Assembly (NCBI GenBank): GCA_963205015.1
Contig: CAUJKI010000306.1
Span: 1 to 36,425 of the forward strand
Length of the DNA: 36,425 nucleotides
Reading direction: 5' to 3'
From: Pseudomonadota bacterium
GTDB lineage: Bacteria; Pseudomonadota; Alphaproteobacteria; Rhizobiales; Hyphomicrobiaceae
Within the stretch, counting starts at the first letter, position 1. Every line of letters begins with the position of its first letter. Below the pieces are notes generated by a model. That model did not search any database. It worked only from the letters and a program-made list of their open reading frames with translations, and was not told the DNA's origin. Positions 1-31,246 of the stretch are shown piece by piece. Both the position numbers and the translations under genes were made by a program.

Positions 1-89
1 CCGTGAGCTTCGACGCGAGCCGCCGCAAACGCCGCTTCGCGACCTTTGCTGTCGAGGGTCGCGATGATGCCGATCGTCATTTTCATCAT
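1..89 (-). CDS. Tm-1-like ATP-binding domain (UPF0261 family) protein, N-terminus only, truncated by window edge
   Basis: Reverse strand from 89 reads MMKMTIGIIATLDSKGREAAFAAARVEAH..., matching the 'I.(G/A)TLD(T/S)KG.E' N-terminus of UPF0261/Tm-1-like proteins; 42 bp downstream of livF, same strand. Not in the ORF track because it is partial. Confidence 0.72.
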   Translation of the reverse strand, partial: MMKMTIGIIATLDSKGREAAFAAARVEAH

Positions 90-131
90 GCAAACCTAAG
101 AGACGCCGGCAGCCACAAGCGCATCGGAACT

Positions 132-836
132 TCAGATACCCAGATAGCTGCGCTGAATTGTGGTGTCCTGTGCGAGTTGCGCGCTCGTGCCGGAGTGCGC
201 GATGCGGCCATTTTCCAGAACGTAGACGTTTTCGGCCGTCTGCAGCACTTTCATTGCATTCTGCTCGGCCACCAGGATCGTAATGCCATCCGCATTGATA
301 CGCTTCAGGACGTCGAAGATGCTGTCGATGATCAGTGGCGCCAAGCCGAGAGAAGGTTCGTCGAGGATCAGCAAGCGTGGCTGCGCCATCATTGCGCGCC
401 CGATCGCCAGCATCTGTTGCTCACCGCCAGACAAGAGGCCAGCCCTCTGCTGGCGCCTCTCGCGCAGCCGGGGGAAGTACTCCTCCACAAGCTCGAACGT
501 GGCACGGTAGGCTTTGCGCGCGGCCTGTCGGTACGAACCGAGTTCCAGATTGTCTTCAACCGACAATTCCGGAAAGAGCATTCGTCCTTGCGGCACCTGA
601 ATGACGCCAAGCGCGACGATGTCCTCCGGCGCCATACCCTGGATGGGCTTGCCCTCGAAGAGTATCTGACCGCCGGTGACACGGGTGAGGCCGGAGATGC
701 TCTTGATCAATGTACTCTTACCGGCACCATTAGGGCCGAGCAGGCCAGCAATAGCGCCATCTTTCACTTCGAGCGTGATGTCGTGGAGAACGTCGACCGG
801 GCCGTAGCCGGCGACCATGTTTCTGATCTCAAGCAT
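132..836 (-). CDS. livF: Branched-chain amino acid-type ABC transporter ATP-binding protein LivF
   Basis: MLEIRNMVAGYGPVDVLHDI...GPNGAGKST...LSGGEQQMLAIGRAMMAQPRLLILDEPSLGLAP; start placed at 836 (ORF extends to 914), 8-bp overlap with livG. Confidence 0.93.
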   Translation of the reverse strand: MLEIRNMVAGYGPVDVLHDITLEVKDGAIAGLLGPNGAGKSTLIKSISGLTRVTGGQILFEGKPIQGMAPEDIVALGVIQVPQGRMLFPELSVEDNLELGSYRQAARKAYRATFELVEEYFPRLRERRQQRAGLLSGGEQQMLAIGRAMMAQPRLLILDEPSLGLAPLIIDSIFDVLKRINADGITILVAEQNAMKVLQTAENVYVLENGRIAHSGTSAQLAQDTTIQRSYLGI

Positions 837-1605
837 GGGTGGCACTGCCGTGGCCGAGGTAGGCTTCGATGACGAGAGGATCGCGCTGTACTTCCTGCGG
901 GGTGCCTTGTGCAATCTTCTCGCCGTGATCGAGCACGTGGATCATCTGAGCGAGCCCCATGATCACCCGCATATTGTGCTCGATGATCAGTAGCGTCACG
1001 CCAAGCTCACCCGCGATGCGCTTGCACGCGGTGATCACTTCCTGAGCCTCGCTGCTATTCATGCCCGAGGTTGGCTCGTCGAGCATCAGGATGCGCGGCT
1101 GCGCGAGCAAGGCGCGCGCGAGATCGATCTTCTTGAGCGTTCCGAATGGCAAATCTCCGGTCGGGACATCACGAAGTGCGCGGAGATTGAAGATGTCGAG
1201 CATCTTGTCCGCTTCTGCAAAGGCCTTGCGCTCGGCTGCGAACTTCCCGGGGGTGCCGAGAACATCCTGCAGGACGGTCGACGTGCGGTGCGCGAACCCG
1301 CCGGCCACAAGATTCGTGATCACGGTCTGATCGGCGAATGTCTCGGCGTGTTGGAATGTCCGGCCGATGCCAGCCTCGGCGCGTTTGTGAGCGAGCATCT
1401 GGTGGACTGGCTGGCCGTCGATCACGATGCGGCCATCCTGGTGGGGAATGAGCCCCGAGACGGCGTTGATCAGCGTGGTTTTGCCGGCGCCGTTGGGCCC
1501 GATCAAGCCGTGAATCTCCCCCTTGCCGAGAGCCAGAGAGACGTTGGCTACCGCGCGCAAGCCACCGAACGTAACGACGAGATTGTCGATGGTGAAGTAG
1601 CTCAT
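829..1605 (-). CDS. livG: Branched-chain amino acid-type ABC transporter ATP-binding protein LivG
   Basis: Walker A GPNGAGKTTLINAVSG, GRTFQ, LDEPTSGMNSSE; C-terminal LivG-type 'VIEAYLG'. Confidence 0.93.
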   Translation of the reverse strand: MSYFTIDNLVVTFGGLRAVANVSLALGKGEIHGLIGPNGAGKTTLINAVSGLIPHQDGRIVIDGQPVHQMLAHKRAEAGIGRTFQHAETFADQTVITNLVAGGFAHRTSTVLQDVLGTPGKFAAERKAFAEADKMLDIFNLRALRDVPTGDLPFGTLKKIDLARALLAQPRILMLDEPTSGMNSSEAQEVITACKRIAGELGVTLLIIEHNMRVIMGLAQMIHVLDHGEKIAQGTPQEVQRDPLVIEAYLGHGSATHA

Positions 1606-2603
1606 TACACGCCCGCCCCGTGCTTGGAGATTGCCGGCTGGGAGTTCGTCTTACCAGACAAGCGCTGACGGATGCGCGGAACCACGCTGACGAGCCCATG
1701 CGGTATCAGGATCAGGAACGCCAGCAGCAGCACGCCGAACACCAGCTCGTTGTACTCCTTGAAGTCGCGGAGGAGTTCAGGCAGCACCGTCAAAGCTACG
1801 GCACCAACCACCGATCCGACGATCGAACCGAGGCCGCCGACCACGATGATGATGATGTATCGCACCGATGTCCAAAGGCCGAATTCGAGCGGATCGATGA
1901 AACCGACGAGGCTGGCGAACAACCCGCCTCCAATACCGGCGAAGAAAGCAGCCAGCATAAAAGCGATCAGCTTCACGCGTGACAGCGGCATCGCGAGAGT
2001 CTGCGCAACCGATTCACTGTTGCGAATAGCGTCGAATGCACGGCCTGTCGGCGAATTGATGATGGAGTATGCGCACCAGATCGCCAGGAGCGTGATCGCA
2101 AGGATGACGTAGTAGAATGAAAGATCGCTCGCCAAGGTGTAGCCAAAAAGCGCCGGCCTGGATGCCGGCATCCCGCGCACACCGCCGGTAATGCTTGGCA
2201 GCTCCGTGATCAGGAGCTGCGACATCTCGAGAAATCCAAGCGTCACGACAGCCAGATAGAAACCGCGCAGGCGGAGCGCCGGAAACCCAAGTGCAAGGCC
2301 GAACATCGCAGCGATGATGCCGCCCATCGGCAGCGCCACCCAAAACGACAACCCTACCTTGGAAACCAGATAGGTCGTCCCATAGGCACCGATTGCCATG
2401 AACGAAGAGTGGCAGATAGAGATCTGCCCGGCATTGCCGGTCAGCAAGTTGAGGCCAATCGCAATGATGATGTTGATCAGACAGAGTGATGCCAGATAGT
2501 GATGATACGAGCCGAAAGCCAGCGGAGCCGCGATCGCCAGAATCAGCAGCACGCCGAGAGCGAAGTGCGTCGGCGTGAACTTCCATGATGCTTGCTCAGA
2601 CAC
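1605..2603 (-). CDS. livM: Branched-chain amino acid-type ABC transporter permease LivM
   Basis: Multi-TM with GLNLLTGNAGQISICHSSFMAIGAY and VVGGLGSIVGSVVGA motifs; GTG start at 2603 preferred (ORF extends to 2633), giving an 8-bp overlap with livH. Confidence 0.92.
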   Translation of the reverse strand: MSEQASWKFTPTHFALGVLLILAIAAPLAFGSYHHYLASLCLINIIIAIGLNLLTGNAGQISICHSSFMAIGAYGTTYLVSKVGLSFWVALPMGGIIAAMFGLALGFPALRLRGFYLAVVTLGFLEMSQLLITELPSITGGVRGMPASRPALFGYTLASDLSFYYVILAITLLAIWCAYSIINSPTGRAFDAIRNSESVAQTLAMPLSRVKLIAFMLAAFFAGIGGGLFASLVGFIDPLEFGLWTSVRYIIIIVVGGLGSIVGSVVGAVALTVLPELLRDFKEYNELVFGVLLLAFLILIPHGLVSVVPRIRQRLSGKTNSQPAISKHGAGV

Positions 2604-3495
2604 GCCGGGCCTCCGCGGTGCCGAAAATGCCATGCGGACGCACGAGCAGAATGAACATGAGCAGGACGAACGCTGTGATGTCCTTGAACAGGCCGCCGAA
2701 ATAGACGCCGCCGAAGATCTCGAGCAAGCCGAGGATAAGCCCGCCGATCAGACACCCGAAGAGGCTGTTGAAGCCACCGAGAATAGCGGCGACGAAACCC
2801 TTGAGGATGACGTTGCTCATTTCGGCCGAGACGCCGACGACGGGTGTCATCAGGATGCCGGCAAGCGCTGCGAGCGCGGTACTGACTGCCAGCGTCAGCG
2901 TGAAGATGCGGCTGACGCGAATACCCATAAGCTGCGCGGCGGACGTGTTCTGCGCCACGGCTTGCATCGCCTTGCCGACGAGATTCTTGCGAAAGAACAA
3001 CGCCAGCATCCCCATGATCGCAAGCGAGCAACCGGTGATCCAGGCGTATTGCGGGTTGATGTTGATGCCGCCGATCTGCAGCATAAGATGGTCGAGCGGT
3101 GAGGAGAACGTCGAGACCGCCTCCTGCCAGGAAATGCGGAGCGCATTCTTGATGATCAGGCCGATCGCCAGTGTGGCGACGACGACAGTGAAGTGCGGAG
3201 CGCCCAGTAGCGGGCGCAAAAGCGCACGCTCCATTATGCCACCGATGATGGCAGTGGTGAGCAGCGTCAGTATGAAGACCTGCCAGTAGGGTAGACCCAC
3301 AACGATCGAGTAGAAGAGCGCGATGTAGGCGCCAAGGGCCACAAGCTCGCCTTGAGCGAAGTTGAGAATGCCTGTTCCCTTGTTGGCCAGGACCAGACCA
3401 AGGCCGACGAGCGCATAGATGCTCCCCGAGCTCAAGCCGGCCACCACCAACTGAACGAAGTCTGAAAATCCCATAGCATTGCCCTTGACGGCCAT
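2596..3495 (-). CDS. livH: Branched-chain amino acid-type ABC transporter permease LivH
   Basis: LSSGSIYALVGLGLVLANKGTGILNFAQGELVALGAYIA, LivH signature; true start may be an internal Met (MGFSDF). Confidence 0.92.
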   Translation of the reverse strand: MAVKGNAMGFSDFVQLVVAGLSSGSIYALVGLGLVLANKGTGILNFAQGELVALGAYIALFYSIVVGLPYWQVFILTLLTTAIIGGIMERALLRPLLGAPHFTVVVATLAIGLIIKNALRISWQEAVSTFSSPLDHLMLQIGGININPQYAWITGCSLAIMGMLALFFRKNLVGKAMQAVAQNTSAAQLMGIRVSRIFTLTLAVSTALAALAGILMTPVVGVSAEMSNVILKGFVAAILGGFNSLFGCLIGGLILGLLEIFGGVYFGGLFKDITAFVLLMFILLVRPHGIFGTAEARRV

Positions 3496-3559
3496 CTGCA
3501 GGCGTCACGGAGCGGGCTGACAGCCCGCCCCGGAACCCGTCGGAAGCAATCGCTCCCAA

Positions 3560-4780
3560 TCACTTCTTATAGTTGGCGAGCACTTCGCTCTCGCGCAGCG
3601 GCGACCACTTCAGGGGCACCCAGTGGCCAGCAACGACGATCATGATCTGCTGGGTCAGGTTGCCGATGTGATGCCAATTGGTGAATGTGCGCGGCGTCGC
3701 GATTTCGCTCACGCGGTAGTCCTTGACCTGCTCGAGTGCGTCAATGAACTTCTCTCGCGTCAGATCACGACCGGCCTTCTTAAGCGCCTCGGCAATGACG
3801 TAGACCTCGGTGTAGCCCCACACGTCGAACAGGTTGGGGCGACCTTTCGGCGCATTGGGATTCATCTTTGCCCAAGCCTCGCGGAACTTCACCATGTCCG
3901 GGTTTCCGGAGTCCAGGAATGCGCCGGCACCCCACAGGCCGAGCAGCCCCTCGGCATTTGGGCCAAGATTGGTGATCAGCGTGTTGTCGACTGATGAGGG
4001 CGCCACCATGATCGGCTGCCGCAAGCCAAGCTCGCGCGCCTGTCTGATGAGGATCGAGACTTCCGGTACCTGACCGATCGCAAAGAGCAGCTCCGGATTG
4101 CTCTGCTTGACCTGCAGGAGCTGCGGCGTGAAGTCCTTGTCGCCGACCTTGAATTCGGCCCGCATGAGCGGCTTCACACCGTACCACTTGTTCAGGATCT
4201 TGACCGTCTCGTCACCTTCGGTCTTCAGGTTCTCCTCGACGCCGCTGAGGATCGCGACGCGCTTCACCTGAAGGAAGTCGTTGAAGAACTCGGCATTGAG
4301 TTCGCCGAAGCGAACGGTCTCGGTCGTTGCACCGCGGAATAGGTAGCGGTTGAAGGGGTTGGTGACGGCAGGCGCCGAAGCGATCGTGATGTAAGCCGGC
4401 ACCTTGGCCTGGCGCAAATATTCGATCGTGCCAACGGTCGGGTTGCTACCCGAGATGCCGTTGATCATGAATACCTTGTCTTGCTCGACCAGCTTCTTGA
4501 CTGCCGCCAGAGCACGGCTCGGCGAGAAGCCGTCGTCCTCGAAGATCATCTTGAGCTTGCGGCCGTGGATGCCGCCCGCCTCATTAATCTCCTTGTAGGC
4601 AAGCTCGGCTCCTGCCTTGCCGCCAAGCCCCAAGAACGTCGCACCGCCTGTTATAGGGCCGTGCGAGCCGATCAGAATGGTGTCGTCCGTCACGCCGACC
4701 TCGGCAGCTATGGCTGTCGAGCTCGACAGCATCGCGGCCACAGCCACGATACTCCGAAGTGTCTTGCGAATTGCACGCAT
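3560..4780 (-). CDS. Liv/HAAT-type ABC transporter substrate-binding protein
   Basis: Signal peptide MRAIRKTLRSIVAVAAMLSSSTAIAAEVGVTDDTILIGSHGPITGGATFLG; periplasmic binding protein (Peripla_BP_6 type). The ORF's first ~177 codons (to 5311) are antisense noise; start at 4780. Confidence 0.9.
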   Translation of the reverse strand: MRAIRKTLRSIVAVAAMLSSSTAIAAEVGVTDDTILIGSHGPITGGATFLGLGGKAGAELAYKEINEAGGIHGRKLKMIFEDDGFSPSRALAAVKKLVEQDKVFMINGISGSNPTVGTIEYLRQAKVPAYITIASAPAVTNPFNRYLFRGATTETVRFGELNAEFFNDFLQVKRVAILSGVEENLKTEGDETVKILNKWYGVKPLMRAEFKVGDKDFTPQLLQVKQSNPELLFAIGQVPEVSILIRQARELGLRQPIMVAPSSVDNTLITNLGPNAEGLLGLWGAGAFLDSGNPDMVKFREAWAKMNPNAPKGRPNLFDVWGYTEVYVIAEALKKAGRDLTREKFIDALEQVKDYRVSEIATPRTFTNWHHIGNLTQQIMIVVAGHWVPLKWSPLRESEVLANYKK

Positions 4781-4872
4781 CGTATCCTCCTTGGCTCCCC
4801 TGGGTACCGCACGGATCACGGCGCAATGAGCCCGCCTCGATCCTTTTGTTGGTGCGTCGCCTCTTGCGGTGT

Positions 4873-5655
4873 TTAGAGCGACGTCAGGATTCCGCCGTCG
4901 ACCGTGAAAATGTGGCCATTGATGTAGCGGCCGGCCTCCGACGAGAGGTAGACCACCAGCGGCCCGAGATCCTCGGGCTTGCCCCAGCGCCGCAACGGAA
5001 TCTTGTCCTTCAGCGTATTGTAGATCTCCGGCCGATCGAGAAGCGCCCGATTGAATTCGGTCTCGTACATGCCCGGCGCAATGATGTTCGTGCGGATGCC
5101 ATGAGGCCCGAGTTCGACGGCCAACGCCTTTCCGAGTGCGGTCGTCGCACCCTTTGCCGTCGTGTATGGCGCGATCGTGCCGCGCACGCTCTCGATAACG
5201 ATCGAGCCGATCATGATGATCGATCCGCTCTTGCGATCGATCATGTGTCGCGCAACGGAGCGCGTCACGAGGAATGAGCCGGTGACGTGCACATCCATGA
5301 CGGAATGCCACTCGGCCAGCGTGAAGTCGACGAACGGCTTGCGAAGCTGATTGCCGGCGTTGTTGACCAGAATGTCGATCTGTTTGTGCTGCGCGACAAT
5401 GTCAGACACCGCCTTGTCGACTTCGCCCTCCGACGTGACGTCGAACTCCGACGCCGAGCACGAGAGGCCCTGACTGCGCAGCTCATCGACGGACGCGTTG
5501 AGGCTTTTGGCATCACGATCGTTCAGGACGACATGAGCGCCAGCCGCCGCCGCGGAGCGTGCATAGGCAAAGCCGATACCCCGCGCGGCGCCGGTAATCA
5601 GTGCGACTTTTCCTTTGAGCGAGAATGTCTCGGTGTGAAGGGCGTGCTGGCTCAT
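4873..5655 (-). CDS. SDR family NAD(P)-dependent oxidoreductase
   Basis: KVALITGAARGIGFAYA (GxxxGxG), LVNNAGN, catalytic Y-x-x-x-K in APYTTAKGA, C-terminal VYLSSEAGRYINGHIFTVDGG. Confidence 0.93.
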   Translation of the reverse strand: MSQHALHTETFSLKGKVALITGAARGIGFAYARSAAAAGAHVVLNDRDAKSLNASVDELRSQGLSCSASEFDVTSEGEVDKAVSDIVAQHKQIDILVNNAGNQLRKPFVDFTLAEWHSVMDVHVTGSFLVTRSVARHMIDRKSGSIIMIGSIVIESVRGTIAPYTTAKGATTALGKALAVELGPHGIRTNIIAPGMYETEFNRALLDRPEIYNTLKDKIPLRRWGKPEDLGPLVVYLSSEAGRYINGHIFTVDGGILTSL

Positions 5656-5706
5656 GCTACTGCTCCGTCAAGTCGGGTAAAAGTGCCGTGGATTTGCGTT
5701 TTTTTG

Positions 5707-6546
5707 TCATGCGACCGGCGTACCGCCGGCTCGGAGATTTTTGAATCGCTGCACCTGCTGAACGATGGCCCGCTCGGCTGGCAGACGCTCGATGCTCGAG
5801 GCGCCGAAGAAGCCGACGACCCCATTCGTTCGCGCAAGCACATAAGCAGCGTCGTCGGGTTCGGCGATCGGCCCGCCGTGGCAGAGAACCAGGATGTCGT
5901 TGCGCACGCGTTTTGCCGCATCCTGGATCGCCTGAATCCGCACGACAGCGTCGTCGAGTGTTACGGTCGTCTTGGCGCCAATGCGCCCGGATGATGTAAG
6001 CCCGACGTGCGCGACGATGAGGTCGGCACCGGCATGCACCATCGCCTCCGCCTCGCCTTCGTTGAAAACATAGGGGCAGGTCAGCAGATCCAGCTCATGT
6101 GCCGTGCGGATGACATCCACCTCGCGATCGAAACCCATGCCGGTTTCTTCGAAGTTCTGCCGGATCGCGCCGTCCACCAGCCCGACGGTGGGAAAGTTCT
6201 GAATACCCGCGAAGCCGATGTCGCGCAGCTCCCGCAGGAACTGCGGCATGAGGCGGAACGGATCGGTGCCGCATACGCCGGCAAGGACCGGCGTCGATTT
6301 GACGAGCGGCAGCACCTCGCCGGCCATCTGCATAACGATTGCGTTTGCATCGCCATACGGCATGAGGCCGGCCATGGATCCGCGCCCGGCCATGCGGTAG
6401 CGGCCGGAATTGTAAATGATGATGAGATCGGCACCGGCCATCTCGGCGCTGGTGGCGGAAAGGCCGACGCCTGCACCGCAGCCGATCAGGGGCTCGCCGC
6501 GACTTATGGATCGGCGGAAACGGTCAAGTATGGCCTGACGGCTCAT
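5707..6546 (-). CDS. Phosphoenolpyruvate hydrolase-family TIM-barrel protein (Tm-1 C-terminal-domain-like)
   Basis: [68 protein letters not shown]...VCGTDPF...[19 protein letters not shown]: diagnostic of this family. Confidence 0.88.
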
Positions 6547-6781
6547 TTCACTCGTGCTTTCACGTGAGGAGCAGCAATCGACGGGCTTATCGGGCGCAAA
6601 GGCCGGAGGCTGGCCGAGCGGGCCAGTCAATCAAAACACACATCTCGACCGATTATTGCGGCGTAGAGAAAACTGTCCTTGCGGACTCGCTCGCCAGGTA
6701 AATAGGCATGTTTTCCTCCGCTGCTATTGTGATTATCATGCGTCTGGTGAAAGAACTTGCAGTGTGAACATTCGCGAGGCC

Positions 6782-7630
6782 ATGGGTATAGTGCACGGCA
6801 ACCTACTCGAAACACACCTTATCGGGGATGACACGCGTCAGTGGATCGTAAGGGGCGAAGACTGCCCCGCGTTGCGTCAGCGACATATCTCCCACGTCGG
6901 TGTTGGAGATGCTGCTGTGCCCTATCGGATCGTGCGCACGAGCCTCAGCGGCGCCTATCTTCATGCCTCCCTGGGCGGCGAAGGGCGCATCCTGCTTGAC
7001 GGTCGCTGGCGACCCCACAAACGCGGCATGACTTCGCTGGCGCCAGCGCTTGCGCTGCACGCCTTCCATGCCATCCCCTCACAGCGCTGGCAGTACTGCT
7101 GGGTGCGCTACACGTTCGACTCGCCGAGATCGAAGCTCGGCGTGCTGAGCCCGGTCATCACGGCTTTCGATGGAGAGCCGATCCGTCACGCAATCATGGG
7201 TCTCTCACATGAAATGCAGGGTGCGGGCAATGCCGCCAGTTGTGCGCTGTGGGTCGATCTCATAGAGCGCTACGTCGATCGCTTTGCCGAGCCTTGGCAA
7301 GATGAAAGGCGACTGCGACTCCTGTGGATGAAGGTGCAGTCGGATCTCGCGCACGCCTGGACGCTCAAGAAGCTTGCAAGCCTTGCGGCATTGAGCACCG
7401 AGCACCTTCGCCGACGCTGTCAGCGCAGCATGGGCCGCAGCCCCATGCAGCAGCTTGCGGTTCTACGAATCCAACACGCTGCCCATATGCTGGCGACAAC
7501 AGACGAGAAGATCGAGGTGGTTGCCCACAGCGTGGGTTACCAGAACCCTTTCGCCTTCTCGAACACCTTTAAAAAAATCACCGGCCTGCGCCCGTCTCAC
7601 TTCCGCGCGCACAAGCGCAGCAACGCTTGA
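6782..7630 (+). CDS. AraC-family transcriptional regulator
   Basis: C-terminal HTH_18: LKKLASLAALSTEHLRRRCQRSMGRSPMQQL...VAHSVGYQNPFAFSNTFKKITGLRPSHFR; divergent from the Tm-1-like/liv operon. ORF extends upstream to 6554; start uncertain. Confidence 0.88.
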   Translation: MGIVHGNLLETHLIGDDTRQWIVRGEDCPALRQRHISHVGVGDAAVPYRIVRTSLSGAYLHASLGGEGRILLDGRWRPHKRGMTSLAPALALHAFHAIPSQRWQYCWVRYTFDSPRSKLGVLSPVITAFDGEPIRHAIMGLSHEMQGAGNAASCALWVDLIERYVDRFAEPWQDERRLRLLWMKVQSDLAHAWTLKKLASLAALSTEHLRRRCQRSMGRSPMQQLAVLRIQHAAHMLATTDEKIEVVAHSVGYQNPFAFSNTFKKITGLRPSHFRAHKRSNA

Positions 7631-10518: not shown

Positions 10519-11493
10519 TCACTGAATGTTGAGATGATGCGCGATCGGGAAGAACATCTGCCGCCATGTCTCCGGCCGCTTCTTGATGATGCCCGCCTTG
10601 TGCATGAACGACAGGTACTTCTCCACGCCCGAAACCTCGACGGTGTAGATGATGTTGTTCTTGTCCAGGATCTGCTTGCGCAGCACCTCCGGCTTTTCCG
10701 GCTCGCCCGTTATCTCGATATAAGCGGCGATGGCTTTGTCCGTCTCCTCGTAGATCATTCTGTTCGCCTCGTTCAGCGCATCGAAACTGGCCTGCGTGAT
10801 CAGCGGGTTTTTCGACACGAAGTCCTCACGTGCTACGACGATATTGGTCGCCAGAACGTCGTAGATGGTGCGAATGCGCGGATCTGCGATCTCGCGATCA
10901 TGAAAGGGGGAAGATGTTGCGTGCACCGTGATCGCGCTCGAGGCATCGAGCAGCGCTGCGACCGAATCCGCGTGCGTCATCGGAACCATAAGGGAATTGA
11001 ACTTGCCCCAGTTCTCGAACCCGAGCAGTCGCGCGACCTCCATCTGGAACTCGAGCGCCGGCGTCGAGATGATAATCGACGGAAGCGCAATTCTGTCGTT
11101 GTCGCTGAGATCGGCCAGCGACTTGAGATTTGGATTTCGCGTATTGTAATGCAGGCGATACGATACCCATCCGGCGAGCCCCTTGACCTTTCCGCCGGTC
11201 TTGTCCCAAAGCAGCGCGCTTGCCGCGACGCCCGTTGCGGCGATGTTTACCGAACCGGACAGCAGTGCCTCGTTCAGGGCGGTGCCGCCCGTCATTTGGG
11301 GCCACGAAACCGTGAGCTTTGGCACGCCGAGCTTGGTCGCGTGCTTCTCGATTAGCTTGTGCTTCTCCATGACCGCGAGCGCGACGGAGAAATTGCCCGG
11401 CTGGCGCGCGATGACGATCTTGTCGACCTCCGCCGAAGCACTGTGGGCAAAGCTGCAACTCACGATCGCGGCCGCGATACACCGACGTATCAT
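10519..11493 (-). CDS. NitT/TauT-type ABC transporter substrate-binding protein
   Basis: Signal peptide then VDKIVIARQPGNFSVALAVMEKHKLIEKHATKLG...LNEALLSGSVNIAATGVAASALLW; SsuA/TauA/NMT1-like. Confidence 0.87.
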   Translation of the reverse strand: MIRRCIAAAIVSCSFAHSASAEVDKIVIARQPGNFSVALAVMEKHKLIEKHATKLGVPKLTVSWPQMTGGTALNEALLSGSVNIAATGVAASALLWDKTGGKVKGLAGWVSYRLHYNTRNPNLKSLADLSDNDRIALPSIIISTPALEFQMEVARLLGFENWGKFNSLMVPMTHADSVAALLDASSAITVHATSSPFHDREIADPRIRTIYDVLATNIVVAREDFVSKNPLITQASFDALNEANRMIYEETDKAIAAYIEITGEPEKPEVLRKQILDKNNIIYTVEVSGVEKYLSFMHKAGIIKKRPETWRQMFFPIAHHLNIQ

Positions 11494-11568
11494 TGCTTCC
11501 TCCTGATTTTGCTGATTTCACCCTCGTGGCGAGGGCGTTCTGCCGCTGAGATGCCATCGCGCAGCCAA

Positions 11569-12432
11569 TCACTGACGCGCTTGCTCTCCCCACTTCTTCA
11601 CGGTTCTGCTTTCTATGGCGCCGAAGACCACGTATTCGACGATGAGACCGATCAGTATGATCGTGAGCAGTCCGGCAAAGACTGCCGGTATCTCAAGCCT
11701 GTTGCGGTTCTCGAAGATGAACCAGCCGAGACCACCCCGCCCGGAGCTCACGCCAAATACGAGCTCAGCTGCAATCAGTGTGCGCCACGCAAAAGCCCAC
11801 CCAATCTTCAATCCCGCCAGGATTGACGGGAAGGCGGCGGGCACGAGGATGCGCCAGACAAAGGATAGGCCGCGCAGCTCGTAGTTCCTGCCCACCATCC
11901 GCAGCGTTTGCGAGACGTTCCTGAAGCCCGTCAACGTGCTGAGCGCGACCGCCCACAGCACGGAGTGCACGATCACGAATATGATGCTGCCCATGCCTAG
12001 ACCAAACCAAATCAGTGCCAGGGGGAGGAGCGCAATGGCCGGCAACGGGTTCAGCATGGCCGTCACTGTTTCGAGGAATACAGTGCCGAACTTGCTACTT
12101 ATGGCGAGTATGGTCAGCGCCGCCGCGAGGACGATACCCGTTGAATAGCCTATGGCCAGATACTCGAGCGATGTCACAATGCGCTCCGGCAGTGTGCCAC
12201 TCAAGAGCAGCTCAAACATGGTGACGATCGTTTCGGACAACCGCGGAAACACGAGGCTGTTGTCCAGGAAGATCGCATAGCCCTCCCACAGGCCTGCCAA
12301 CACGATCAGCACCGCGGCTCTTTTGGCACCTGCGCTGGCAAGAAGCTGCCCGCTCCAGCCAATGGGCTCGACCGCCGCGGCTGGGGCGGTGTCAACCTCG
12401 TCCAAACGGTAGTCCGGGAAGATACTGTTCAT
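11569..12432 (-). CDS. NitT/TauT-type ABC transporter permease
   Basis: BPD_transp_1-type inner membrane protein, MVGRNYELRGLSFVWRILVPAAFPSILAGLKIGWAFAWRTLIAAEL (EAA loop); 4-bp ATGA overlap with the ATPase gene. Confidence 0.9.
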   Translation of the reverse strand: MNSIFPDYRLDEVDTAPAAAVEPIGWSGQLLASAGAKRAAVLIVLAGLWEGYAIFLDNSLVFPRLSETIVTMFELLLSGTLPERIVTSLEYLAIGYSTGIVLAAALTILAISSKFGTVFLETVTAMLNPLPAIALLPLALIWFGLGMGSIIFVIVHSVLWAVALSTLTGFRNVSQTLRMVGRNYELRGLSFVWRILVPAAFPSILAGLKIGWAFAWRTLIAAELVFGVSSGRGGLGWFIFENRNRLEIPAVFAGLLTIILIGLIVEYVVFGAIESRTVKKWGEQARQ

Positions 12433-13229
12433 TGGCTATCCTTCATGAATAGCACTTTGTGGACTTCCTTCTCGAGAGCCAGCGGGGATCCGTATCGCGC
12501 GATGGCTCGATCCACGTCGTCGATCTCCGATCTGACGCGACCCGGATGAGCCGAGAGAAGGAGGATTCTGTGCCCTAGTCGAATTGCCTCAGCGATCGAA
12601 TGGGTCACGAAGAGAACAGTGACCTTGGTGCTGTTGCAAAGCTCGAGCAGCTCGTCCTGCATCGTCCGACGCGACAGAGCATCGAGCGATGCAAACGGCT
12701 CGTCCATCAGCAGAATGTCCGGCTTCATCGCGAGCCCGCGCGCGATCGCAACTCTCTGCTTCATCCCGCCCGACAGCATATGCGGGTAGCTGTTGACCGC
12801 CCTGCTCAGCTTCACCTTGTCGATGTATTCACGCGCCATAGCCTCCGCGTCTCGCGCGGAATATCGCCGGGCAACAATGAGTGGGAACATCACGTTCTGG
12901 ATGACCGTCTTCCAGGGTAGAAGCTGATCGAATTCCTGAAACACCATGATCCGATCCGCACCGGGGCCCTCGACCCGCCTGCCGTTCACTTCAATCGTTC
13001 CGCTCTCCGGCTTCATGTAGCCGCCCACCGCCTTCAGCAGGGAGGACTTCCCGCAGCCGGACGGCCCCAGCAGAATGCAGCGTTCCCCGGAGTTGACGGA
13101 AAAACTCACCTTTTCGGTCGCGCTGATGGTTGCTTCCGCCGTCTTGTACTTGAGGGTGACATCATTGACGCGGAGCAACGGTGCGGAACCGGCCCCTGCC
13201 GCCTGACTGACGCTTACATGGTCAGTCAT
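12429..13229 (-). CDS. NitT/TauT-type ABC transporter ATP-binding protein
   Basis: LGPSGCGKSSLLKAVGG, LSGGMKQRVAIARGLAMKPDILLMDEPFASLDALSRRTMQDEL, SsuB/TauB-like; start at 13229 or 13262. Confidence 0.92.
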   Translation of the reverse strand: MTDHVSVSQAAGAGSAPLLRVNDVTLKYKTAEATISATEKVSFSVNSGERCILLGPSGCGKSSLLKAVGGYMKPESGTIEVNGRRVEGPGADRIMVFQEFDQLLPWKTVIQNVMFPLIVARRYSARDAEAMAREYIDKVKLSRAVNSYPHMLSGGMKQRVAIARGLAMKPDILLMDEPFASLDALSRRTMQDELLELCNSTKVTVLFVTHSIAEAIRLGHRILLLSAHPGRVRSEIDDVDRAIARYGSPLALEKEVHKVLFMKDSQ

Positions 13230-13362
13230 TGCGATCCGGTCCAATGTTTGAACTTCTCCCATGGAGCGGCGCTTTCCCAGATGTTCAGCACGATCTTCGT
13301 GCCCGCGTAAAACATCGCTATATGATGTCATGACGAACGCACCAGACCCGAGCCCCGCTTCA

Positions 13363-14229
13363 TCATGCGCTCTGCCTGCTGGCGGCGGGCTTTCTTCCAG
13401 GGATACCCGCGTCGGCGTAGGCTTTATGATGCATATCCCTGATCATAGGCAGCACATGGTCGACATCGACGATAATGTTGCCGTGCGCAGATGCGATGAT
13501 CGAAGGCTTATGCTCGTCAATGAGCTCGTCCATTTCCTTCAGCAGCCTGTCCGGATCGACGAACCGGCTCCAGTGCAATGCAGCTCTGATAATGAAATTG
13601 CCGAGCTCGACATTGACACCCGATCCGAGCTCCGTGCTCGTCAGCGTGCATTCCCCGGGCCGATGAAGAGGCTCATCAAGCATCGGGTTTTGCGATCCCG
13701 CGTGTAGGAACGCGAAACCGTCCGCCACGAACATTATTCTGTGCGTCTCCTCGAATGCCCACAGTGAACTTGGAAGGTCCTTCAGAATGGCGGGTACGAA
13801 CCTGAGCTTCAGACCGCCGAGATCGACAGCATCCCCGATGGATACATTGAGCGCTCGCCCACGGGTTTCAGGATAGTAGAGGCCATAGTCCCTCACGTCC
13901 CCGATCAGGGAGCAGGAAGGATACTCGTCGAGAATGTTCGGGATGTTGGCGCAGTGAGGTACCTCAGGATGCGTCGGGAATAGATAGTCCAGACTTCGCC
14001 CGCCGAGTGCGATATTCAGCTGCGCCTTCAACGAGTCCCAGTGCCGAGGCATGCCGGTATCTATGAGGAGAGTTTTCTCTTCTCCCTTGAGCAGGAACTG
14101 GTTCAGGTGAATGTGCATGATCTCTGCCGTCACACTGATCTTCAGGCAGTTGCCGAACCAGAAAATGTTGGGTGCGATTTCCCGCGGGAAGGTATTGCGC
14201 TCGTACTTATGCCCTTGACCATCAGCCAT
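13363..14229 (-). CDS. Flavodiiron-like MBL-fold protein with partly degenerate metal motif
   Basis: EKTLLIDTGMPRHWDSL...FPTHPEVPHCANIPNIL...VADGFAF...ASAHGNII; canonical HxExDH read as H-P-E-V-P-H. Start at 14229 overlaps upstream stop (TAATG). Confidence 0.8.
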   Translation of the reverse strand: MADGQGHKYERNTFPREIAPNIFWFGNCLKISVTAEIMHIHLNQFLLKGEEKTLLIDTGMPRHWDSLKAQLNIALGGRSLDYLFPTHPEVPHCANIPNILDEYPSCSLIGDVRDYGLYYPETRGRALNVSIGDAVDLGGLKLRFVPAILKDLPSSLWAFEETHRIMFVADGFAFLHAGSQNPMLDEPLHRPGECTLTSTELGSGVNVELGNFIIRAALHWSRFVDPDRLLKEMDELIDEHKPSIIASAHGNIIVDVDHVLPMIRDMHHKAYADAGIPGRKPAASRQSA

Positions 14230-15032
14230 TACCGCAGCCCTTCCTTCTCGAGTACGTCCAGTACGAGATTGAGATGTCTGTCCACAACATCGCGTCCCAT
14301 CAGAACGCAGCCATGCGTCGGGGCAATCGTCTCGATCCGGCGGGCGGAAAAGACCTTCCTCACCCAGTCGCCGAGGGGCGCGGTATCTGCTTTCGGGATC
14401 CACCAGAATTTGGCGAGGATATGCTCCCTGGCGCTTTCGTAGGTCGTCTTGTCCAGCGTCGAGGACGTGATGATTGGAGGTGCTTCCGGCGACAACACGT
14501 CCGTATGGCTGAACACATCACTGGAGAAGAGCGTTCCCGTCTCCGCATCGAAGAACCAAACGGTGAGCAGCATTCGGAACTGAGCGAGAAACATCTCCAG
14601 GACAGGAGGATCTCCGACCGTGAAGCTGGCAGGTGCTCCGAAAGGAAATGTCGTGAGCTTTACGGACTGCGCAACGAGCGATGAGTAGTCGTCGAACGGA
14701 TTCGCGACCGTCGCCGTAACAAGCTCGTTGATCGGCACATTCTCATGTATCGCGAGCAGGTTTCCGGCGCACTCCGGCTCCGAGCGCGTCAGGCAAGCAA
14801 TGACGTAGTTGCCGTCTTTGATTTCACGTGTAACCGCCGGTACGATATTCGATTGATGACACGCCACCCCCGTGTCGATCAGCACGTGTGCCTTGGGCTT
14901 CTTCAGAAGATAGCAGCTGACGGGCTGGAAGAGGTTTGGCTTGATCGGCGCCCAGCTCGCCTGCCCGTCCAGCGCGATCGAACCGCCCAGGCGCATTATT
15001 GTGCCATTCAGGTTGTGTTGGCGTGCGTTCAT
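14229..15032 (-). CDS. Flavodiiron-like MBL-fold protein with strongly degenerate metal motif
   Basis: AHVLIDTGVACHQSN...LTRSEPECAGNLLAI...FFDAETGTLFSSDVFS...IAPTHGCVLMGRDVV; HxExDH replaced by R-S-E-P-E-C. Confidence 0.78.
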   Translation of the reverse strand: MNARQHNLNGTIMRLGGSIALDGQASWAPIKPNLFQPVSCYLLKKPKAHVLIDTGVACHQSNIVPAVTREIKDGNYVIACLTRSEPECAGNLLAIHENVPINELVTATVANPFDDYSSLVAQSVKLTTFPFGAPASFTVGDPPVLEMFLAQFRMLLTVWFFDAETGTLFSSDVFSHTDVLSPEAPPIITSSTLDKTTYESAREHILAKFWWIPKADTAPLGDWVRKVFSARRIETIAPTHGCVLMGRDVVDRHLNLVLDVLEKEGLR

Positions 15033-15632: not shown

Positions 15633-17141
15633 TCAATCGGCGCTCTGGAATACTTCGTCGCGACTCTTGCGGATGGCAGGCAGGACAGCGATCAGCACAA
15701 GCAACGCCGCCAATGCAAGCAAACCGGCGCTGAGAGGACGGTTCAAGAACGTCATGAACTCGCCACCCGAGATGACCAGCGCCTGGCGCAGCTTCTCCTC
15801 CAGCAGTCTGCCGAGGACGAAGCCGAGCAACAATGGAGCGGGCTCGAACCCGAACTTGATAAGGGCGTATCCAAAGAGACCAAAGCCCACCGTCAGGACA
15901 ACATCGAAAGCCGAGTTGTTGACCGAGTAGATACCGATGCAGCAGAAAAGCAGGATCGAGGGGAACATCAGTCGGTAAGGTACTTTGAGGAAGCGCACCC
16001 AGAGACCGATCAGCGGCAGATTGATGACGAGCAGCATCAGATTGCCGATCCACATCGACGCGATCATGCCCCAGAAGAGCTCCGGCTGCTTCGTGATGAT
16101 CTGCGGCCCAGGCACAATTCCATGGATGGTCATGGCACCGACCATGAGCGCCATCACCGCATTGGGCGGGATGCCGAGCGTGAGCAACGGAATAAAGGAC
16201 GTTTGCGCGCTGGCATTATTGGCCGACTCCGGACCTGCCACGCCCTCGATAGCACCCTTACCGAAACGTGAAGGGTCTTTAGCCAGCTTCTTCTCGAGCG
16301 TATAGGAGGCAAAAGGCCCAAGTACAGAGCCATTGCCCGGCAAGAGGCCGAGCAGGCCCCCGAGGAGCGTGCCGCGCGCGATCGGCATTGCAGACTGCCC
16401 GAAGTCGGCACGGCTCGGCAGCAGGTTCCCGATCCGCGCCTTCATGATCTCCTGACTCTGATCCGTTTCCAGATTGCGCAAGATCTCGGCAAAGCCGAAC
16501 ATGCCCATGGCAATGATTGCCACATCGATACCGTCTGCAATCTCATTCCAGCCGAATGTCAGCCGGTCTTGGCCTGTCTCCAGGTCTACGCCCACCGTGG
16601 AGAGCAAAATGCCGACCAGAATGATCGCGATCGTTCTCCTCACAGAGCCGTGCGCCAGGACGACGGCGAGCATGAGACCGAGCACCATCAACGCGAAGTA
16701 GTCTGCGGGCCCGAACAGCAGCGCCATGCGCGTCATTGGTCCTGCCAAGCTGGCAATGATGAGCGTCCCAACGCATCCCGCAATGAAGGAGCCGATGGCA
16801 GCGATACCGAGAGCGACGCCTGCGCGACCCTGCTTGGCCATCTGGTGGCCGTCCAATGTCGTCACGACCGCGGACGCTTCGCCAGGAATATTGACGAGAA
16901 TGGCCGTTGTCGAGCCACCGTACTGGGCACCGTAGTAGATGCCCGCCAGCATGATCAGCGCACCAACCGGATCGAGGCCGAAGGTGATCGGCAGCAGCAT
17001 GGTGATGGTGGCAATGGGGCCGACACCCGGAAGCACACCGACAAGCGTGCCAATGAGGCAGCCCAGAAAGCACAAGGTCAAGTTCTGCAGCGACAGCGCT
17101 ACACTCATGCCAAGCAAGAGGTTGTCGGAAAGGTCGATCAT
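15633..17141 (-). CDS. tctA: Tripartite tricarboxylate transporter large permease TctA
   Basis: GVLPGVGPIATITMLLPITFGLDPVGALIMLAGIYYGAQYGGSTTAILVNIPGEASAVVTTLDGHQMAKQGRAGVAL: canonical TctA. Confidence 0.96.
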   Translation of the reverse strand: MIDLSDNLLLGMSVALSLQNLTLCFLGCLIGTLVGVLPGVGPIATITMLLPITFGLDPVGALIMLAGIYYGAQYGGSTTAILVNIPGEASAVVTTLDGHQMAKQGRAGVALGIAAIGSFIAGCVGTLIIASLAGPMTRMALLFGPADYFALMVLGLMLAVVLAHGSVRRTIAIILVGILLSTVGVDLETGQDRLTFGWNEIADGIDVAIIAMGMFGFAEILRNLETDQSQEIMKARIGNLLPSRADFGQSAMPIARGTLLGGLLGLLPGNGSVLGPFASYTLEKKLAKDPSRFGKGAIEGVAGPESANNASAQTSFIPLLTLGIPPNAVMALMVGAMTIHGIVPGPQIITKQPELFWGMIASMWIGNLMLLVINLPLIGLWVRFLKVPYRLMFPSILLFCCIGIYSVNNSAFDVVLTVGFGLFGYALIKFGFEPAPLLLGFVLGRLLEEKLRQALVISGGEFMTFLNRPLSAGLLALAALLVLIAVLPAIRKSRDEVFQSAD

Positions 17142-17162
17142 CTACGCGCCAATCTCCGCCGC

Positions 17163-17720
17163 TTATCGCGAAATGGCCATCACCAGTCCCTTGATCGCCA
17201 CCTTGAGCGCGTCGTACGGACCGTGCAGGAAGCCAAGTATGTCCCTGGGATCGAACGGGATCGGCAGGCTGAGAAGCTCCTTGAACAGGAGGCCGCAGAA
17301 CAGCGTTGCAACGATCGCCGCAATCACCGCCTCGACAAAGCGCGTGCTGCGATCGGCAAGGGCTGCAACGAGAAACGCCAGAGGCCCCGCGATGACAAGA
17401 CCCAACGGACGAACGGCGAACGCGAACAAGAGAGCCGCGCTCAGCAGCAATAGGGGCCCCCGAACGCCCCATCGCGCGAGGCCGTCTCCGAGGACGACAA
17501 AGCTCTGCAGCGCAAGGATGCAGCCGAACGCACCGACCAGCACGGCCACAACCTTGGGCATCATGCCTGCACCGATATCAGAGAGCTGGCCCAAAGACAG
17601 CGAGAACGTGCCGGCATAACCGACAACCGCGATGGCGATGAGGAACAGCCCACCGGCAAGATCGAGCGGTGAGCGTATCAATGGGCCTACGCGCTCGCGC
17701 TCAGGGGAAGGGTCAGACAT
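17163..17720 (-). CDS. tctB: Tripartite tricarboxylate transporter small permease TctB
   Basis: ~185 aa, four predicted TM segments, LSLGQLSDIGAGMMPKVVAVLVGAFG; directly upstream of tctA. Start MSDPSPERERVG at 17720. Confidence 0.85.
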   Translation of the reverse strand: MSDPSPERERVGPLIRSPLDLAGGLFLIAIAVVGYAGTFSLSLGQLSDIGAGMMPKVVAVLVGAFGCILALQSFVVLGDGLARWGVRGPLLLLSAALLFAFAVRPLGLVIAGPLAFLVAALADRSTRFVEAVIAAIVATLFCGLLFKELLSLPIPFDPRDILGFLHGPYDALKVAIKGLVMAISR

Positions 17721-17837
17721 CGTTCGCGCGTGCTCCGCACACGGTGCCGCCAGCCGGGATAACGACAGTCGTCCGGCATGACATGATGGCGTTGCGTCCA
17801 GCCTAGCGAGACCTTGCGCAGCTGCGTCCCGCACCCT

Positions 17838-18797
17838 TCACTGCTTTTGCTTCGGCAAGCCCTGGATCACTTCGCTCCAGATCTCGTACTCTTTCTTGAG
17901 CCACCGCTGGAATTCCTCGGGTGTGGCGTCGCTGACATCGACGCCGAGCTTACCGAACGCGTCGATGACGCTCTGGTCCCGGCGGACTTTGTCGATGGCT
18001 GCCTGCAGCTTCGCAACGATCGGAGCTGGTGTTCCGGCAGGCATGAACACGCCCGTATAAGTTTGCGCCACGAAGTCGTAGCCAGACTCCTTCAGTGTCG
18101 GCACATCCGGCAGGAACTGACTCCGCTTGTCCGATGTAACGGCCAAAGCGCGCAGCGTCCCGGCCTGGACTTGAGGCAATGCCGTAATCATTGCGTCGAA
18201 GTTGAAGTCGATGTGGCCACCGATTACATCGTTGGTTGCAGGCGCATTGCCGCGATAGTGAACCGTCTTCCACTTCACGCCGAGCTTCGCCTGCATCAGC
18301 TCGCCGATGAGGTGATGAATGGTAGCGGCGCCCGGCGTCGAGGTGGAGAGATCCTTTGTCTTCGCCAGCTCGATCAGCTCGCGCGGCGTTGTCGCTGGAA
18401 CCTTCGGATTGACCTGCATGACAAGGGCCGAGACCGAAAGGCCCGCTACGGTCGTGAAATCCTTGTCCCAGGAGAATGTCTGCTTCGCGTACGTCAGCGG
18501 CGTGAGCTGGATGGCGTTAGTACCCGTGATCAGCATCGTGTAACCATCCGGCTCGGATCTCGCGACGAATTCCGACCCGACCAGACCCGAAGCGCCTGGC
18601 TTGTTCTCGACGACGAAGGGCTGTCCGAGCAGTTGCTCGAGCTTGATGGCGACGATGCGTGCGGAGGTTCCGGCGTTGCCGCCCGCAGGATAGGGCACGA
18701 TGACTTTGACGGGCCGCGTCGGCCAGTCCTGCGCCACTGCCGGAGTCAGCAACGAGCAGGCAAGGAGCACGCTCCCGAGGATTCTTGAGATCAGCAT
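17838..18797 (-). CDS. tctC: Tripartite tricarboxylate transporter substrate-binding protein (TctC/Bug family)
   Basis: WPTRPVKVIVPYPAGGNAGTSARIVAIKLEQLLGQPFVVENKPGASGLVGSEFVARSEPDGYTML: canonical Bug signature. Confidence 0.95.
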   Translation of the reverse strand: MLISRILGSVLLACSLLTPAVAQDWPTRPVKVIVPYPAGGNAGTSARIVAIKLEQLLGQPFVVENKPGASGLVGSEFVARSEPDGYTMLITGTNAIQLTPLTYAKQTFSWDKDFTTVAGLSVSALVMQVNPKVPATTPRELIELAKTKDLSTSTPGAATIHHLIGELMQAKLGVKWKTVHYRGNAPATNDVIGGHIDFNFDAMITALPQVQAGTLRALAVTSDKRSQFLPDVPTLKESGYDFVAQTYTGVFMPAGTPAPIVAKLQAAIDKVRRDQSVIDAFGKLGVDVSDATPEEFQRWLKKEYEIWSEVIQGLPKQKQ

Positions 18798-23512: not shown

Positions 23513-25186
23513 TCAGGAGCGATCGGCCATCTCCGTCTCAAGGGCGCGGGCCTGCGCAGGATAGTGACTCCGCACATACTCGAGTGACGTAAGACCAGCG
23601 TCGAGGTCGGCGCGGATCCGAGCCAGGGTGCGGCGCTCGGGCGGGCCGAACCCGCCACCGCCGGCCTCCTCCAGCACGATAACCGATCCGGGCGTCACGT
23701 CGCGGCGGGACTTTGGCGCGACGGCAGCCCCGTCGAGTGAAAGCACACGCAGCGCCCCATCGATACCACCGGCAAACCCACGCGCAGGGCGACTGGTCCG
23801 CGAGGCGAAGAAAGCCGCATCGACCGGGGCATCGGTGTCGTTGCGTAACTCGACCACCTGCCCGGCACCGCCCTGGAAGGTGCCCGCGCCGCCGCTGTCG
23901 ACGCGCCATTCCTTACGCAGAAACGTGATGCCGGTGTTCTCCTCCCAGATCTCAACGGGAATGCCGATCATGTTCGACGGCCCTGGCAGCACCGGACGCC
24001 CATCGAGGTCGGCAAAGGCGCCATACCCGCCGGAGGTAAACAGAATGTAGGAATAGTCACGGCCCTGAGGCGAGCGGCCGCGAAAATTGATCTGGCAGAT
24101 CATACCGCTGTCGGCCTGAACCTGCATCGGGACCACATCCGCGAGCGCGCCGAACACCAGCGGCGCCACGTAGTGACCGAGGATGTGACGACCGCCCGTG
24201 GCATAGGGGCGCTTCGCGTTGAGAATGCAGTTGTCAGGCGCAGCGATGGTGACGAAGTCGAGCACCGCCTGATTGTTGGGGATGTTCGGCGCGACGATGG
24301 TCTTGAAGGTGAAGTAGCAGTACGCGCGCGTGTAGCAGAGCGGCACATTGATGCCGCGATTGACGACGGGCGAGGTGCCGGTGAAGTCGAACGTGAAGCG
24401 TTCCGGCGAAATGGAAATCTGGACGGCGAGGTTGATGAGCGCGTCGTCCTGGACGCCCTCCACTGACAGCGATCCGGCAACCTTGCCGCAGGGCAGCGTG
24501 CGCAACACCTCTGATATAGCGTTGCGAGTCAGGTCAAAGATCGCGTCAGCCGCTCCTACCGTGTCGACCAGCCCGTATTCGGCAAGCAGATCGTCGATGG
24601 CCGCGGCCGCCACGTTGCAGGCTGCAACGTTGGAATAAATATCGCCAATGACCAGGTCCCGGAAGCGCACATTCGCCTCAATGAGGTCGAACACGAACTT
24701 GTTCGGCTCTCCGCGCACGAACAGCTTCACCGGCGGGATACAAATGCCCTCCTCGTAGTTGTCGCGCGCACCAGTGCCGTAGCCGATACCGCCGATATCG
24801 GCCAGATGCGACACCGACAGCGCATAAGCGACGAGGCGACCGTTGCGGAAGATCGGCTTGACAATGTTGACATCGTAGACGTGACCGGTGCCGATCCAGG
24901 GATCGTTGGTAAGAAGCACGTCACCGTCGGCCAGGGTGTCCGCCGGGATGTGTTCCAGCATGCCGGAGAGCGTCGCGGGTCCGGTGCCTGTGAACGAAGG
25001 TACGCTCGCCGTTCCTTGCGACAGGAAGCGGCCCTTCGCATCGAACAGCATGCAGGAGTAGTCGCCGCTCTCGCGCACCATGGTGGAGAACGAGGTGCGC
25101 ACAAGCGCCGAGACCATCTCGTCGGCGATGGAGACGAACCGCGACCAGATGATGCCGGCGTCGATGGGATCGAGCTTTTCTTGCAT
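23513..25186 (-). CDS. hyuB: Hydantoinase B/oxoprolinase family protein
   Basis: LDPIDAGIIWSRFVSIADEMVSALVRTSFSTMVRESGDYSCMLFDAKGRFLSQGTASVPSFTGT...LTNDPWIGTGHVYDVNIVKPIF. Confidence 0.95.
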   Translation of the reverse strand: MQEKLDPIDAGIIWSRFVSIADEMVSALVRTSFSTMVRESGDYSCMLFDAKGRFLSQGTASVPSFTGTGPATLSGMLEHIPADTLADGDVLLTNDPWIGTGHVYDVNIVKPIFRNGRLVAYALSVSHLADIGGIGYGTGARDNYEEGICIPPVKLFVRGEPNKFVFDLIEANVRFRDLVIGDIYSNVAACNVAAAAIDDLLAEYGLVDTVGAADAIFDLTRNAISEVLRTLPCGKVAGSLSVEGVQDDALINLAVQISISPERFTFDFTGTSPVVNRGINVPLCYTRAYCYFTFKTIVAPNIPNNQAVLDFVTIAAPDNCILNAKRPYATGGRHILGHYVAPLVFGALADVVPMQVQADSGMICQINFRGRSPQGRDYSYILFTSGGYGAFADLDGRPVLPGPSNMIGIPVEIWEENTGITFLRKEWRVDSGGAGTFQGGAGQVVELRNDTDAPVDAAFFASRTSRPARGFAGGIDGALRVLSLDGAAVAPKSRRDVTPGSVIVLEEAGGGGFGPPERRTLARIRADLDAGLTSLEYVRSHYPAQARALETEMADRS

Positions 25187-25197
25187 TCTGTAGGGCC

Positions 25198-27318: not shown

Positions 27319-27319
27319 T

Positions 27320-28330
27320 TCAACCGGCAAGCTTTACTGAGAAGCGCGCTTCCAGACCCGACAGACTGCGCAATTCGCTCTCGGAGTAGTCGATTCCGTC
27401 CGCTGTCTGGCGAGACATCTTTTCCAGCTCCGGTTGCCCCGGCCACATCACCTTGGCAAAACCTTCGGCGGGAGGACAGTCCTCGATTTCCTGCCGCAGC
27501 CGTCCGGCAGCCTCGAAGTAGCCTGCCGGATCGATGAAGCGCTTGAGATCCACGGCGACGATGAACCAGTTGAGCTCGTGTGGCGTGCCGAGCGCCGCAT
27601 CACCGAACAGCTCGGCGATGAACCCCATGCCATAACCTTTCGCGCCGGCGGAGGGAAGCATGGCACCACCATCGTAAAAATCGCGTGCGTCGTTGGTGGG
27701 TCGACCATTATTGTCAATGATCCAGCCGTCCGGAACTGGCGTGTTGTTGGTGCGGAACACAAGCAGCTTGCCTTGTGCCGTCGCCGACGTCGCGAAGTCA
27801 CTGGTGGTCGCGCGCGTCTCGTCCAGAGGCAGGCTGAAGGCATAAGGGTTGGTGTCAAAGACGCCTTTGCGTCCACCGAAGGGCGCGACTTCCTTGAGCT
27901 TCTTGTTGCCGCCGCCACCAAATACGAAGCCCCACATGAACTCGCGCGCCAACATCTCACTGTAGGCGCCGATGCGTCCAGTATGCGCGCAATTGACGAT
28001 GGCGGCGCCGGCGATGCCTACGCTTCGCGCCAAAGCGGTGAGATCGGGCAGAATTCGATGAAAGCCGACGATGCCGAAGTTCTTGTTGGCATCCATGCGC
28101 AGCAGGTTCGGCGCCACCTGCTTGCAGCTCACCTCGGCCTTGTTGGCAATGTAGCCTGCATCGATCTGGTCGACGTACTTGATCATTCTGAGGAGTCCGT
28201 GCGAGCGCACGCCGCGCAGATCAGCATCGGCAAGATGCGCGGCGACGACGGCAGCGTCGCCTGCCGACGTTCCAAGCTTCAACAGAACGTCCTTGCAGAA
28301 CTCCTCAACGCGCGTCGCGGCGACCTTCAT
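27320..28330 (-). CDS. Ldh family oxidoreductase (malate/L-lactate/ureidoglycolate dehydrogenase-like)
   Basis: AAHLADADLRGVRSHGLLRMIKYVDQI ... FDTNPYAFSLP ... GAKGYGMGFIAELFG. Confidence 0.92.
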   Translation of the reverse strand: MKVAATRVEEFCKDVLLKLGTSAGDAAVVAAHLADADLRGVRSHGLLRMIKYVDQIDAGYIANKAEVSCKQVAPNLLRMDANKNFGIVGFHRILPDLTALARSVGIAGAAIVNCAHTGRIGAYSEMLAREFMWGFVFGGGGNKKLKEVAPFGGRKGVFDTNPYAFSLPLDETRATTSDFATSATAQGKLLVFRTNNTPVPDGWIIDNNGRPTNDARDFYDGGAMLPSAGAKGYGMGFIAELFGDAALGTPHELNWFIVAVDLKRFIDPAGYFEAAGRLRQEIEDCPPAEGFAKVMWPGQPELEKMSRQTADGIDYSESELRSLSGLEARFSVKLAG

Positions 28331-28411
28331 TTCCCTGCCTCTGCGGTGATCGTGCTGTAGCTCGCTTCATGTTTCGCTCGTGCACCGGAAAAGGCGCTGG
28401 AGCACATTGGT

Positions 28412-28429
28412 ACATTATATATAATGCAT
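28412..28429. promoter_or_regulatory. Putative GntR operator ACATTATATATAATGCAT upstream of ldh-hyuA-hyuB
   Basis: Contains 12-bp perfect palindrome ATTATATATAAT; 17/18 match to 32259-32276. Confidence 0.72.
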
Positions 28430-29244: not shown

Positions 29245-29250
29245 ATCATC

Positions 29251-31214: not shown

Positions 31215-31246
31215 GTCCAACGCCTCCTGCTGCGCGCTGTCCGCGA

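Follow-up and report, generated by a model that had tools for sequence, protein, structure and literature searches.

Recurrent linkage of bacterial Tm-1-like genes with Liv-type importers points to catabolism of an imported small molecule

Tomato Tm-1 and plant Tm-1L (3wrw, 3wry; PMC5028733) are built from the same two domain families, UPF0261 and PF09370, as a pair of bacterial proteins, and both the co-evolution of these families and their fusion in plants have been published (PMC5028733). In plants the two domains form a single fused polypeptide, which inhibits tobamovirus replication, whereas in bacteria they are encoded by separate genes in a metabolic setting. The identification of the two bacterial families with the halves of Tm-1, made in a preliminary description of the DNA analysed here, agrees with that paper and with our structure search, in which UPF0261 finds a match in the N-terminal domain of tomato Tm-1. 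The UPF0261 gene BMEII0128/BAB2_1127 is among the attenuation-linked genes of Brucella in a mouse mutant screen (PMC2364660, PMC12613988). Another example is SMa1334 (398 aa) of S. meliloti, which by its size and neighbours is probably a UPF0261 gene; its insertion gave no symbiotic phenotype, and no expression in nodules was detected (PMC3462710). Our literature search on these families found no function for UPF0261, PF06792/PF09370 or bacterial Tm-1-like proteins.

Two other solved proteins are close to the pair. Mll9387 (2p10) has the same PF09370 family and fold as the gene described below, and its name, putative phosphonopyruvate hydrolase, is an annotation only. Saro_1862 of Novosphingobium aromaticivorans (PDB 9mpy), which UPF0261 also matches in the structure search, belongs to the UPF0261 family and was solved with acetovanillone bound. 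It is reported that acetovanillone catabolism in N. aromaticivorans begins with MarK, a single-component kinase (PMC13101465, 2026). By our own reasoning Saro_1862 is probably MarK; if so, the UPF0261 family includes at least one kinase of small molecules. The biochemical role of the families, called unclear in the preliminary description, is less open than was claimed, since a UPF0261 protein has been crystallised with acetovanillone. The acetovanillone dikinases HpeHI and AcvAB (PMC9618137, PMC12167813) also start aromatic catabolism by ATP-dependent phosphorylation. Their likeness to the Tm-1-like pair is by analogy; HpeHI is an ATP-grasp and swivel-domain dikinase, a protein type different from both UPF0261 and PF09370.

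The window, that is, the whole stretch of 36,425 nucleotides analysed here, begins with a minus-strand run in the order PF09370, SDR, livK, livH, livM, livG, livF and a truncated gene (Table 1). All of these genes are found where the preliminary description had placed them. The run consists of eight genes on one strand, separated by gaps of 51, 83 and 64 bases, three overlaps and a gap of 42 bases. A pattern scan found no terminator-like sites between the genes of the run, and the sites found overall did not exceed the number expected by chance. We infer that the run is co-transcribed. The PF09370 match is above the family cut-off and full length (positions 2-267 of 267). LivM as called overlaps LivH, and its true start may be more internal. 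The divergent AraC-type gene, whose true start is probably downstream of the called one, may be a candidate regulator of the run from PF09370 to UPF0261.

Table 1. Genes of the minus-strand run at the left end of the window and the divergent regulator
Feature	Position	Strand	Support
Probable UPF0261/Tm-1-like gene, first 29 codons, cut at contig end	1..89	-	UPF0261 N-terminus profile
LivF-type ATPase	132..836	-	ABC_tran E 5.5e-31
LivG-type ATPase	829..1605	-	ABC_tran + BCA_ABC_TP_C; nearer LivG than UrtD
LivM-type permease	1605..2633	-	BPD_transp_2 E 2.5e-41
LivH-type permease	2596..3495	-	BPD_transp_2 E 3e-27
LivK-type periplasmic binding protein (Peripla_BP_6)	3560..4789	-	Pfam E 7e-55
SDR oxidoreductase, gluconate-5-dehydrogenase-like	4873..5655	-	Pfam adh_short_C2 E 2e-62
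PF09370 'PEP hydrolase-like' TIM barrel, Tm-1 C-terminal half; heads the run	5707..6546	-	Pfam E 9e-128, 425 bits
AraC-type regulator, divergent from the run	6554..7630	+	HTH_18 E 1e-19

The importer is a complete HAAT (Liv-type) ABC system: a binding protein, two BPD_transp_2 permeases and two ATPases exist in this single run. It does not qualify as an E. coli-type LivKHMGF system for branched-chain amino acids, as its proteins score below the NCBIfam cut-offs (LivF 237.7 of 441 bits, LivG 220 of 362, LivM 221.9 of 366, LivK 103 of 477). A specificity for urea or amides was also considered, LivF of the canonical cluster described below being nearer to UrtE, but it was rejected for the window importer, whose LivF scores 237.7 bits against the LivF profile and 216.6 bits against UrtE. 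The SDR has hexonate and gluconate dehydrogenases as its closest solved structures and scores under the NCBIfam equivalog cut-offs shown. Other transport genes are found further along the window. The stretch 10519-14403 holds an ABC-type permease (11569-12432), an ATPase (12429-13331), a possible binding protein with no Pfam match (10519-11493) and a metallo-beta-lactamase-fold protein (13363-14403), and TctA and TctC genes of a tripartite tricarboxylate transporter lie at 15633-18797.

The product of the truncated gene, read from 89 to 1, is MMKMTIGIIATLDSKGREAAFAAARVEAH. These 29 residues score 28.6 bits (E 9e-8) against a home-made profile of the UPF0261 N-terminus, built from the loci fetched for this study, while the best of 2000 shuffles scores 7.2; the gene therefore appears UPF0261-like, as had been proposed. 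It carries the motif TLDSKG, compared with TLDTKG in relatives. The window opens at the left edge of a contig (G000:C306:1) in a draft of 687 contigs, and neither half of UPF0261 (PF06792 and PF23189) is found elsewhere in the draft. The remainder of the gene and the sequence downstream of it are therefore unassembled. The Tm-1-like pair of the window is likely truly split around the importer, which falls short of proof because a second PF09370 gene could sit past base 1. Such a gene would make the pair unsplit: the gene at 89 would start a second, ordinary UPF0261-PF09370 pair after livF, and the PF09370 gene at the head of the run would be an extra paralogue. We consider this arrangement possible if doubtful; the usual order elsewhere is livGF-UPF0261-PF09370 (e.g., in G010 and Thermomicrobium roseum) and the sequence beyond base 1 is absent from the assembly, but the draft holds just one PF09370 gene, the one in Table 1. 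The question touches gene order only, and an unsplit pair fits a catabolic module as well.

Among 149 related genomes, PF09370 is found in 28 and UPF0261 in 27. Counting from our tables, UPF0261 lies directly upstream and on the same strand at 22 of the 26 places with a full-length PF09370 gene; the four exceptions are the window itself, G116, one place in G102, and G001, where a contig break falls between the genes. At about two dozen loci, and in T. roseum, liv genes are followed by UPF0261-PF09370. LivH/LivM-type permeases are found near Tm-1-like genes at about 30 of 66 loci, versus 2 of 20 control stretches of 20 kb from the same genomes, the neighbourhoods of the relatives being inspected over up to 20 kb; note that these counts are descriptive and carry no test, because the loci are kin to one another. 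The link between the Tm-1-like pair and the importer is thus conserved and recurrent in relatives. This part of the preliminary description was borne out by the neighbourhood survey; what differs is the arrangement, since in relatives the two genes are normally adjacent rather than bracketing the importer.

The recurrent cluster reads livK, AraC, livH, livM, livG, livF-UPF0261, PF09370, a flotillin-like gene, one or two SRPBCC genes, coxM, coxS, a split coxL and a MadB-type AAA ATPase. In 20 open reading frames (e.g., L079 9630-11843, minus strand) LivF is fused in frame to a complete UPF0261 protein, and for one fusion Pfam confirms ABC_tran, UPF0261 and UPF0261_C in 737 residues. A molybdenum hydroxylase of the CoxL2 subfamily is found in 14 of the 149 relatives, all 14 of which have Tm-1-like genes. 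In 11 of these genomes it lies inside the cluster that adjoins the pair. G102 carries it about 12 kb away from a lone PF09370 gene whose UPF0261 partner lies elsewhere. In G001 and G111 a short contig of its own holds the gene, so that its position relative to the pair is not judgeable. A literature search of incomplete coverage found no published description of the LivF-UPF0261 fusion or of the molybdenum hydroxylase cluster.

Another example comes from a different phylum. T. roseum has livHMKGF-UPF0261-PF09370 with genes of the molybdenum hydroxylase family downstream. Directly after its Tm-1 pair (L100 11635-20816) are genes for PEP-synthase-like proteins, a fumarylacetoacetate hydrolase and proteins of the molybdenum hydroxylase family, a set that may be regarded as reminiscent of phosphorylation-initiated aromatic catabolism. 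Many other Tm-1 pairs, in Rhizobiaceae, Streptomyces and Rubrobacter, have no HAAT importer beside them. The rhizobial pairs adjoin sugar-type ABC importers and other oxidoreductases, and therefore the pair probably serves several substrates. Larger open reading frames (about 580-620 aa) with a divergent PF09370 domain also occur near ordinary Tm-1 pairs (L102 6812-8638, L090 16624-18480, L092 16533-18284).

Like the conserved clusters (e.g., L079 and L084) and the T. roseum locus, the window has a Liv/HAAT importer directly upstream of what appears to be a UPF0261 gene, with PF09370 in the same run, and it shares an AraC-type regulator with the clusters of its relatives. UPF0261 and PF09370 are direct neighbours in the conserved clusters, in which LivF and UPF0261 often form one fusion protein; in the window PF09370 comes first. 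Flotillin, SRPBCC, CoxMSL-like molybdenum hydroxylase and MadB-type ATPase genes belong to most of the conserved clusters, and the window instead carries an SDR and a different Liv subtype. The AraC protein of the window resembles that of the canonical cluster solely across the helix-turn-helix, and its Liv proteins are 23-47% identical to the Liv proteins beside Tm-1 pairs elsewhere. No match to the window LivK at E<=1e-80 exists in the 149 related genomes except itself. Among plasmids, the window LivK, LivM and SDR reach 30-48% identity at best (LivK about 30%), with no informative ligand or synteny.

The LivF tree groups the Tm-1-linked LivF of the clusters, together with that of T. roseum, in one clade and places the LivF of the window and of G010 among ordinary LivF. 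A single clade of all Tm-1-linked LivF, a group set by gene linkage and not by the tree, is rejected (AU p 3.9e-5), so that importers were recruited at least twice; a single recruitment event common to the window and G010 gave p 0.10. The importers beside Tm-1-like genes are thus of independent origin. The PF09370 protein of the window is 70% identical to that of T. roseum and 58-59% identical to those of its own genus. It is not part of the clade that the related genomes form, which suggests lateral acquisition, and is nearest to T. roseum and Rubrobacter, on a long branch whose exact place is unsure. The CoxL2-subfamily hydroxylase is not found in the source draft genome, whose assembly is incomplete. 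With its LivF outside the clade and CoxL2 absent from the draft, the window was rejected as a member of the conserved cluster, and its importer and SDR differ from those of the conserved clusters. The positions of LivF and PF09370 in their trees imply independent assembly, so far in one genome; since the conserved module has a different Liv subtype and a molybdenum hydroxylase, we regard the window as an independently assembled variant.

The contig appears to belong to the source genus. A block of 9.8 kb (23532-33313) matches one contiguous stretch in the same-genus genome G003 at 87% identity, making contamination unlikely; the left end of the contig lies outside this block. The block includes genes for hydantoinase A/B, Ldh_2 and a TRAP DctM permease. 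G003 itself has neither Tm-1-like family.

A laterally acquired Tm-1 pair may also, by chance, have come to flank an ordinary importer operon for branched-chain amino acids, with which it shares no substrate. The source genome has at least 23 LivF-like genes, liv permeases occur in 2 of the 20 control stretches of relatives, and the window LivK, LivF and PF09370 have no close syntenic relatives. Because the exact arrangement is known from one genome with so many LivF-like genes, chance proximity is not negligible. We nevertheless hold it to be unlikely, as eight co-directional genes are spaced by gaps of at most 83 bases and an importer of the same kind is independently linked to the pair elsewhere.

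Leads on function come mainly from structure. The PF09370 fold is akin to that of isocitrate-lyase/PEP-mutase-type enzymes. The window protein is 57-59% identical to Mll9387 in the fold alignment (E 2.5e-105 by sequence), and after 2p10 the fold search places methylisocitrate lyase, PDX1 and PanB next, which suggests that the chemistry may be of the lyase or aldolase type. The structure models behind these searches drew on 4-6 sequences (mean pLDDT 80-82), and their top matches are known family members, as expected. For UPF0261, 9mpy is 27-40% identical to the sampled proteins and a quick tree places it outside the pair-linked clade, so that a kinase function may not transfer to the pair-linked proteins.

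PF09370 was formerly named TIM-barrel signal transduction, and the pair might be a ligand sensor or regulator of the imported compound instead of an enzyme; the larger open reading frames with a divergent PF09370 domain could then be regulatory fusions. This is very unlikely in our judgement. The pair co-clusters with catabolic oxidoreductases and importers, the PF09370 group of the window is single-domain with many invariant polar residues, and a UPF0261 relative binds an aromatic growth substrate (9mpy).

The explanation we favour, with reasonable though not high confidence, is that the run is an import-plus-catabolism module for an imported small molecule. LivKHMGF would import the molecule, and UPF0261 would phosphorylate it, or a metabolite of it, with ATP, a step proposed because of 9mpy with its bound acetovanillone, probably MarK. 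The PF09370 TIM barrel would serve as the lyase or hydrolase that cleaves or rearranges the activated compound, the SDR would supply an oxidation or reduction step, and the divergent AraC gene may control the module. Both activities and the order of the steps are inferred. A more specific version, which we think quite unlikely, has UPF0261 as an importer-coupled kinase that phosphorylates the substrate on entry and so traps it for the PF09370 lyase; the kinase would be built into the ABC importer in the LivF-UPF0261 fusions and coupled by proximity in the window. We know of no ABC importer with uptake by phosphorylation.

To our knowledge, no clear role has so far been assigned to the bacterial proteins from which the plant antiviral Tm-1 descends. 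The operon of the window does not by itself reveal the substrate of the pair, as had been hoped. The recurrent importer link and the fusions suggest that the two proteins are enzymes that break down a small molecule brought in by the importer. The independent importer links, the LivF-UPF0261 fusion and the occurrence of CoxL2, in the set searched, only with Tm-1-like genes make a catabolic role directly testable, and the ligand of the periplasmic binding proteins is a candidate for the substrate of the Tm-1-like pair or its precursor.
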